Positions 14,607 through 17,241 of a stretch of 34,629 nt of DNA are shown piece by piece. Position 1 is the stretch's first letter. Every line of letters begins with the position of its first letter. The DNA lies in assembly GCA_027038555.1 (NCBI GenBank), contig JALVVX010000032.1, forward strand, positions 1 through 34,629. The letters are read 5' to 3'. The stretch comes from Nautiliaceae bacterium. Its GTDB lineage: Bacteria > Campylobacterota > Campylobacteria > Campylobacterales > Nautiliaceae. The notes beneath the pieces were generated by a model. It saw nothing but the letters and a program-made list of their open reading frames with translations. It did not search any database and had not been told where the DNA came from. The translations under genes were made by a program, and so were the position numbers.

Positions 14607-14624
14607 TCATACTTCTTTCAATAT

Positions 14625-14746
14625 TTTTTCACATTTAATTCACTATGTGAATAACTATGATAGACATTTTAAAAAGGTTATGTTAAAATAATATTCACAT
14701 AAGTATTCACCGTAATTTCACATATGTGAAAAATAAACTATTCACA
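14625..14746. other. oriC: Origin part 1: DnaA-box cluster between ruvC and dnaA
   Basis: Boxes close to TTATTCACA are dense here. The exact match is on the minus strand at 14646-14654. Near matches are TTTTTCACA 14625-14633, ATATTCACA 14691-14699, GTATTCACC 14703-14711, AATTTCACA 14714-14722, TTTTTCACA on the minus strand 14725-14733, and CTATTCACA 14738-14746. A TGTTAAAAT extended -10 (14681-14689) lies among them and probably drives dnaA, so DnaA may repress its own gene. In Helicobacter the origin is bipartite around dnaA, and this fits. Confidence 0.8.
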
Positions 14747-14758
14747 AAAGGTATACAT

Positions 14759-16063: not shown

Positions 16064-16175
16064 AGTGAATATAAAAGTTTTTCACATTCACTGCCGTTTT
16101 TTACAAATACCGGGTGTTTTAAAGTTTTTTCACCTATTCAACATAAACTACTATTACTACTATAAGAATTTAAAA
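16055..16175. other. oriC: Origin part 2: DnaA boxes and unwinding region between dnaA and dnaN
   Basis: In order rightward: minus-strand boxes GGTGAATGA (16055-16063) and AGTGAATAT (16064-16072), plus-strand TTTTTCACA (16078-16086), a more GC-rich patch with ACCGGGTG, TTTTTCACC (16126-16134), CTATTCAAC (16134-16142), then a CTA trinucleotide run and the AT-rich ATAAGAATTTAAAAC. This box-trio-AT-rich order is the basal unwinding layout known from Bacillus, so this side is the likely melting site. Confidence 0.75.
16148..16162. other. DnaA-trio array
   Basis: The plus strand reads CTA CTA TTA CTA CTA. The complementary strand read 3' to 5' is GAT GAT AAT GAT GAT, five consecutive matches to the DnaA-trio rule 3'-(G/A)A(T/A). 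It begins five bases after the last DnaA-like box and runs into AT-rich DNA. Confidence 0.7.
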
Positions 16176-16188
16176 CAAAGGAGAAATC

Positions 16189-17241
16189 ATGCATATTAAA
16201 ATCCAAAAACCGGTCTTTGAAAGTATTGTAAATCAAGTTGTACCGTTTACAGAGAAAAAAGATAATACACAGATAACATCTCATGTACTTATTATAGCCG
16301 ATGAAAATCTTATACTAAAAGCAACCGATAAAGAAATTGGAATAAAAATAAAAACAGAAGCCCAAATTTTGCAAAAAGGTAAAATTACAATAAATGCAAA
16401 AAAACTAAACGATATTATCAAAGCACTTCAAAATAAAGAAATAGAAATAAAAAAAGAAAACGATACGATAGTAATAACACAAGATACTTCCGTTTATAAA
16501 CTCTCCACATTCAATGCAGACGAATTTCCGGAATTTCCAAATCCCAATGATTTGAACGAACTTCAAATAAAAAATGAGGAATTTACAGACGCAATTAAAA
16601 AAATATTCCCGGTAATTGATAATAACAATCCCAAATATGAACTAAACGGGGCACTTTTTGATATAAAAGAAAACACTAACTTCGTATCGACCGATACAAG
16701 AAGACTTGCACTTTATAAATCTAATGCAAAAGGAAAAGAAGCAAAAATAATTGTTCCCAAAAGAGCAATAAGCGAAATAAAAAGAATTTTCAATAATGAT
16801 ATGAAAATATATTATGATGACATTTATTTGATATTAAAAGACGAGAATATTATGTTTTTCACAAAACTAATAAATGGTAAATATCCGACATATGAGAAAA
16901 TCATACCGCAAAGTTTTAAATATGAATTAACTTTACCTAAAAATGAGTTTATATCGCATCTTAAACAAATAAGCGTTATTTCAAACGAAGTAAAAATCAA
17001 TATAAAAAAAGATGAAATTATTTTTGAGAGTTTTGGTGACGAAACAATGGAAGCAAAAACAAGTTTTAAAATAAATACGAATATTGATGAATTCAATTTT
17101 GCTGTAAACAGTAGATATTTATTAGACTTTTTAAATACTATAAACAACGAAAATTTTGATTTGTGTCTTAATGAACCTAATATACCTTTTGAACTAAAAG
17201 ACGGCAATTTCATAACAATAGTAATGCCTCTTAATATTTGA
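16189..17241 (+). CDS. dnaN: DNA polymerase III beta subunit (sliding clamp)
   Basis: This 350-aa protein has the three-domain clamp architecture. The start MHIKIQKPVFESIVNQVVPF corresponds to the first clamp domain, VSTDTRRLALYK in the middle is the family's conserved stretch, and the C-terminal GNFITIVMPLNI ends with the expected MPL-type tail. It tethers Pol III to DNA and also docks other repair and replication proteins. AAAGGAG lies seven bases ahead of the ATG. Its stop codon supplies the TGA of the gyrB extended -10. Confidence 0.95.
   Translation: MHIKIQKPVFESIVNQVVPFTEKKDNTQITSHVLIIADENLILKATDKEIGIKIKTEAQILQKGKITINAKKLNDIIKALQNKEIEIKKENDTIVITQDTSVYKLSTFNADEFPEFPNPNDLNELQIKNEEFTDAIKKIFPVIDNNNPKYELNGALFDIKENTNFVSTDTRRLALYKSNAKGKEAKIIVPKRAISEIKRIFNNDMKIYYDDIYLILKDENIMFFTKLINGKYPTYEKIIPQSFKYELTLPKNEFISHLKQISVISNEVKINIKKDEIIFESFGDETMEAKTSFKINTNIDEFNFAVNSRYLLDFLNTINNENFDLCLNEPNIPFELKDGNFITIVMPLNI

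Follow-up and report, generated by a model that had tools for sequence, protein, structure and literature searches.

In a member of the Nautiliaceae whose dnaA gene is flanked on both sides by clusters of DnaA boxes, which of the two gaps, ruvC-dnaA or dnaA-dnaN, holds the site at which the chromosome origin opens? The window (the whole stretch of 34,629 nucleotides analysed here) carries ruvC on the reverse strand, followed by dnaA, dnaN and gyrB, the names being taken from the translations and, for dnaA, also from Pfam. The order ruvC-dnaA-dnaN and the box clusters in both gaps are those of a bipartite oriC, and the ruvC-dnaA gap is likely to be oriC1. The original prediction placed the melting site in the dnaA-dnaN gap (125 bases, 16064–16188), where it had read a run of DnaA-trios behind a DnaA box. 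We consider it about 90% probable that the unit in this oriC2 position represents the basal unwinding unit (BUS) of the origin, at which DnaA would load from the boxes onto the lower-strand trios and open oriC. We favor this reading because the boxes and the array are in place, the array is conserved in phase, its spacing follows the boxes, the genome has no second such unit and the class provides precedents.

Results

A box-trio unit between dnaA and dnaN

The lower strand of the array CTACTATTACTACTA, which is present once in the window, reads 3'-GAT GAT AAT GAT GAT-5', that is, five trios that all fit 3'-(G/A)AT-5' (Table 1). The count of five is right since the next step, TAA, has the wrong middle base; ATAAGAATTTAAAAC follows from 16162. 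The letters and coordinates predicted for this place, five trios located five bases after CTATTCAAC with AT-rich DNA next to them, were thus read correctly. The choice of the anchoring box needed to be amended: CTATTCAAC is indeed present, but it is the weaker member of an overlapping, co-oriented pair with cores 8 bp apart, and TTTTTCACC matches better the core TTCAC of the epsilonproteobacterial DnaA box (PMC5043019). The box to anchor the array on is the tandem pair TTTTTCACC + CTATTCAAC.

A BUS has been defined by a DnaA box that departs from the lineage consensus at no more than two positions, three or more 3'-NAN-5' trios in a row, and a spacer of 0–16 bp between box and trios, 13 being the commonest length in the published survey (PMC8287927). 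Compared with HWWTTCACH, TTTTTCACC has no mismatch and the second box has one, the array consists of five consecutive trios, and the first trio is separated by 13 bases from box 1 and by 5 from box 2.

The mechanical list of open reading frames starts dnaA at GTG 14726, within the upstream box cluster; TTG 14759, preceded by AAAGG, looks likelier as the start and is used in Table 1.

Table 1 Features of the dnaA region in the window.
Feature	Position	Strand	Remarks
ruvC-dnaA gap	14607..14758		seven perfect boxes at 14625–14746
dnaA	14759..16063	+	Bac_DnaA E 3.3e-69; 8btg_A match E 1.8e-103
far-end gap box, opposite orientation, ATATTCACT	16064..16072	-	GTGAA kept in nearly all relatives
second tandem box pair, TTTTTCACA (16078–16086) + ACATTCACT (16084–16092)	16078..16092	+	
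DnaA box 1 of tandem pair, TTTTTCACC	16126..16134	+	matches epsilonproteobacterial core TTCAC
DnaA box 2 of tandem pair, CTATTCAAC	16134..16142	+	weaker member; core 8 bp downstream of box 1
spacer ATAAA, box 2 to array	16143..16147		sequence free to vary
DnaA-trio array CTACTATTACTACTA	16148..16162	-	+ strand CTA CTA TTA CTA CTA; DnaA would bind the lower strand in single-stranded form
AT-rich tract after trios	16163..16176		holds conserved AATTTAAA at 16167–16174
dnaN	16189..17241	+	ribosome-binding site AAAGGAG at 16177–16183; conserved homologues

Conservation of the array in the Nautiliaceae

We aligned the dnaA-dnaN gaps of 20 Nautiliaceae genomes from four genera (DnaA identity 63–100%, the genome of the window included) and counted parsimony changes per site on a tree built from DnaA and DnaN. 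The array took 0.93 changes per site versus 4.7 in the middle of the gap, and it is the slowest-changing stretch of the gap, save for a window shifted by one base over the same bases. The five spacer bases changed 3 to 10 times each; third codon positions took 3.3 changes per site in the tail of dnaA and 5.4 in the head of dnaN. The trio phase is kept in all 20 gaps, a consistency test that stands outside the published BUS criteria. The expectation that the trios would stay in relatives while their surroundings vary was therefore borne out.

The 14 changes within the array are distributed over trio positions 1, 2 and 3 as 10, 2 and 2. All ten at position 1 exchange C and T, which is G and A on the bound strand, matching the degeneracy expected of 3'-(G/A)A(T/A)-5', while T at position 2 and A at position 3 are each invariant in four trios. 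Four relatives depart from the pattern in trio 4 or 5 (CCA in L012 and L013, CTG in L009 and L010). According to the cryo-EM model for B. subtilis, DnaA captures the first and second bases of a trio, and the third faces away (PMC10721633); the near-fixed third base in the Nautiliaceae is thus stricter than this base-capture model by itself calls for.

TTCA of box 1 is invariant in the 20 genomes. The two tandem boxes (16126–16142, and the same place in L002–L021) trade strength with each other: 13 genomes combine TTCAC in box 1 with a weak box 2, 5 show the opposite arrangement, 2 have TTCAC in both boxes, and none has two weak boxes. The weak box 2 in those 13 genomes is TTCAA or a form shorter by one base. 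This tally is a direct reading of the alignment; the automatic count is off by one, with an alignment gap lying inside box 2 of L021. Beyond the trios, AATTTAAA is nearly invariant in the same genomes (4 changes over 8 sites), though only AT-richness would be expected there.

The array keeps its distance to the boxes

Most of the other sampled families repeat the order box, spacer, trios, and Bacillus sp. 28A-2 (L086) shows the equal layout (TTATCCACATATTCACAAGCCCTACTAGTACTTCTA), in agreement with the predicted likeness to Bacillus. Not all of the wider genomes fit, some arrays having a degenerate middle trio or an interruption, and in the stretches examined dnaN does not follow dnaA in four genomes. 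Across many families, 13 or 14 nt lie between the TTCAC core and the array in most genomes measured. In further families of the order the distance from the array to dnaN is usually 19–32 nt, but 77, 78 and 123 nt in L035, L025 and L048. Because the former distance is steady while the latter ranges widely, the array is anchored to the boxes, not to dnaN.

This tie speaks against the array being part of a dnaN leader or promoter, conserved for the expression of dnaN rather than for opening of the origin. Such a role is suggested by the position of the Nautiliaceae array, which ends about 19–33 bases before the dnaN start, beside the ribosome-binding site. However, the box distance is unchanged in the three loci where dnaN lies far away, no sigma-70-like promoter overlaps the array, no Rfam family fits it, and the triplet pattern of the changes would be left unexplained. 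Genera g3 and g5 have TATAAT-like -10 elements upstream of the boxes instead. We consider a dnaN leader highly improbable. The -10 elements of g3 and g5 (L015, L016, L018, L019 and L020) are of the TATAATGG type and lie in the middle of the gap; since they are upstream of the boxes, transcription of dnaN in these genera would traverse the unwinding site.

Comparison of the two gaps

If the origin melted in the ruvC-dnaA gap, the array between dnaA and dnaN would be a relic or a secondary element. The former gap holds seven perfect boxes (0.11 expected) versus three, besides several near ones, in the dnaA-dnaN gap (about 0.1 expected), all scored by the TTCAC core. It also holds a weak duplex. 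By calculated duplex stability, the 30-bp stretch at 16143–16172 belongs to the least stable 1.4% of the window, but the ruvC-dnaA gap has an equally weak 30-bp stretch at 14666–14695. Equally weak stretches of 20–50 bp are in fact found in both gaps, and we rejected the thermodynamic argument for the dnaA-dnaN gap; the AT-rich tract, to which the original prediction had appealed, carries no weight by itself in the choice between the gaps. As the weakest 30 bp are equal on both sides, melting energy does not discriminate between the gaps and architecture alone does. GC skew was also considered for placing the origin and was set aside, being too uneven in the window, with a cumulative minimum near 6 kb and a rise after 17 kb.

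The architecture differs. The dnaA-dnaN gap contains a box-trio unit, as expected of this gap in an epsilonproteobacterial bipartite oriC, whereas on neither strand of the ruvC-dnaA gap is a box followed by three or more trios. Moreover, all 20 Nautiliaceae genomes show constraint on the array. P1 nuclease mapping in A. butzleri, S. denitrificans and W. succinogenes, all three of which have a DnaA-trio, located the opening exclusively between dnaA and dnaN (Jaworski et al. 2016, PMC5043019). We regard melting in the ruvC-dnaA gap as highly improbable, and the gap between dnaA and dnaN, as originally predicted, is supported as the putative melting site.

Expectation by chance

How often would such a motif arise by itself in DNA of this composition? 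In a 34.6-kb first-order Markov sequence, both strands included, a TTCA(A/C) core with five YTA trios behind it should turn up 0.003 times, and 0.28 times if the motif is loosened to YTW, so that the YTW motif by itself would prove little. Bare trio runs were rejected as evidence, with six occurrences of five YTA trios in the genome (1.48 Mb) versus 13 for the reversed control. The tandem-box pattern TTCACNNNTTCA alone is not enriched either (28 matches versus 29 in the control). On the other hand, the combination of TTCAC, 10–17 nt and four YTA trios occurs once in the genome, at the dnaA-dnaN gap, and not at all in the control, and across the family 20 of 21 matches to the TTCAC-plus-four-YTA unit, among those listed, are at the dnaA-dnaN gap. 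A chance run of CTA and TTA in an AT-rich gap, with which the 0.28 YTW runs per window and the lack of enrichment of bare YTA runs would agree, is refuted by the in-phase conservation across 20 species and by the reappearance of the array at the corresponding site in most other families, and its probability is practically negligible. We judge the array not to be a product of chance, and the decisive evidence is conservation.

Register of the array in other families

Fifteen aligned arrays, from Sulfurovum-type genera (g36 and g37) and from another family of the same order, have the form CTACTACTA-Y-NTACTA, that is, three trios, one extra base (a pyrimidine) and two trios, with the box spacer unchanged. 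These arrays lie in the dnaA-dnaN gaps of L151, L152, L153, L155, L160, L161, L163, L164, L170, L182, L184, L186, L187, L033 and L041; their second block has TACT without exception, followed by A in 14 of the 15. Named Sulfurovum loci show the register-slipped array too. Our tentative suggestion, which we hold with less than even confidence, is that trio arrays may not always be in one register, a box-anchored 3+1+2 arrangement being conserved in Sulfurovum-type genera, unlike the unbroken array of the Nautiliaceae. Should the slip have a function, a DnaA oligomer bound to single-stranded DNA would have to tolerate a single step of four bases or else assemble as two distinct blocks. Our literature search found no paper combining Sulfurovum and the DnaA-trio. 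In the dnaA-dnaN gap of L031 (G059) the array reads CTAACTAACTATTACTAACTA, with trios mostly four bases apart; this exact pattern was not found in the other 59 family genomes searched.

Discussion

The DnaA protein encoded in the window aligns with the DnaA of entry 8btg, which we took for B. subtilis DnaA, judging from the agreement between its numbering and the residues cited in PMC10721633. According to the cryo-EM structure, E183, N187, K222, E223 and E228 of B. subtilis DnaA contact the trio bases or the adjacent backbone (PMC10721633), and the equivalents of all five are kept. Two B. subtilis contact residues differ, I190 corresponding to R173 and R202 to H185, which speaks against the BUS reading; I193 is replaced by V. 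However, positions 190 and 202 vary in other members of the class as well.

On the BUS reading, DnaA-ATP would bind the co-oriented overlapping boxes TTTTTCACC/CTATTCAAC as duplex DNA. From there a helical DnaA oligomer would grow beyond the 13 spacer bases and reach the trios of the lower strand (3'-GAT GAT AAT GAT GAT-5'), in each of which neighboring protomers would capture the purine and the adenine in the middle. Opening would begin at 16148 and proceed to the right through the AT-rich TATAAGAATTTAAA, in the direction of dnaN. A role in raising the local DnaA concentration or in regulation would fall to the upstream boxes of this gap and to the ruvC-dnaA cluster (oriC1), as in the bipartite origins of relatives.

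The proposed unit resembles three known systems to different degrees. With the BUS of B. subtilis (boxes 6/7 and DnaA-trios) it shares overlapping boxes in the same orientation, the short spacer behind them, lower-strand trios of the 3'-GAT type, an AT-rich tract and the location in the dnaA-dnaN gap, but its boxes have the epsilonproteobacterial core TTCAC instead of TTATCCACA, its spacer (ATAAA) is not GC-rich, and it has five trios, while six are described for B. subtilis. In the bipartite oriC of the epsilonproteobacteria (PMC5043019), too, the genes run ruvC-dnaA-dnaN-gyrB, box clusters flank dnaA, the boxes have the TTCAC core, a DUE-distal box points the other way and a DnaA-trio lies in the dnaA-dnaN gap; the difference is only in the species, the Nautiliaceae unit being predicted from sequence. 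In oriC2 of H. pylori (ts1/ts2 boxes; PMC8235120, PMC8287927) tandem fused boxes likewise stand directly before trios of equal strand and orientation, whereas dnaN does not adjoin dnaA, the upstream box ts1 is weak and a GC-rich spacer is present.

The Nautiliaceae unit is not new for the class, since both location and motif are already experimental in Arcobacter, Sulfurimonas, Wolinella, Campylobacter and Helicobacter. Besides the three species cited above, P1 mapping of C. jejuni in 2018 found the same location, with a degenerate trio (PMC6052347), and in H. pylori the opening was mapped with P1 in 2021 (PMC8235120) and essentiality was shown (PMC8287927). Our literature search found no paper on origins of the Nautiliales and no opening data for this order. 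The present analysis extends, by sequence, an experimentally known origin-opening module to the Nautiliaceae. The natural variation in the family, that is, the purine exchange at position 1 and the near-fixed positions 2 and 3, offers independent evolutionary evidence on which trio bases matter.
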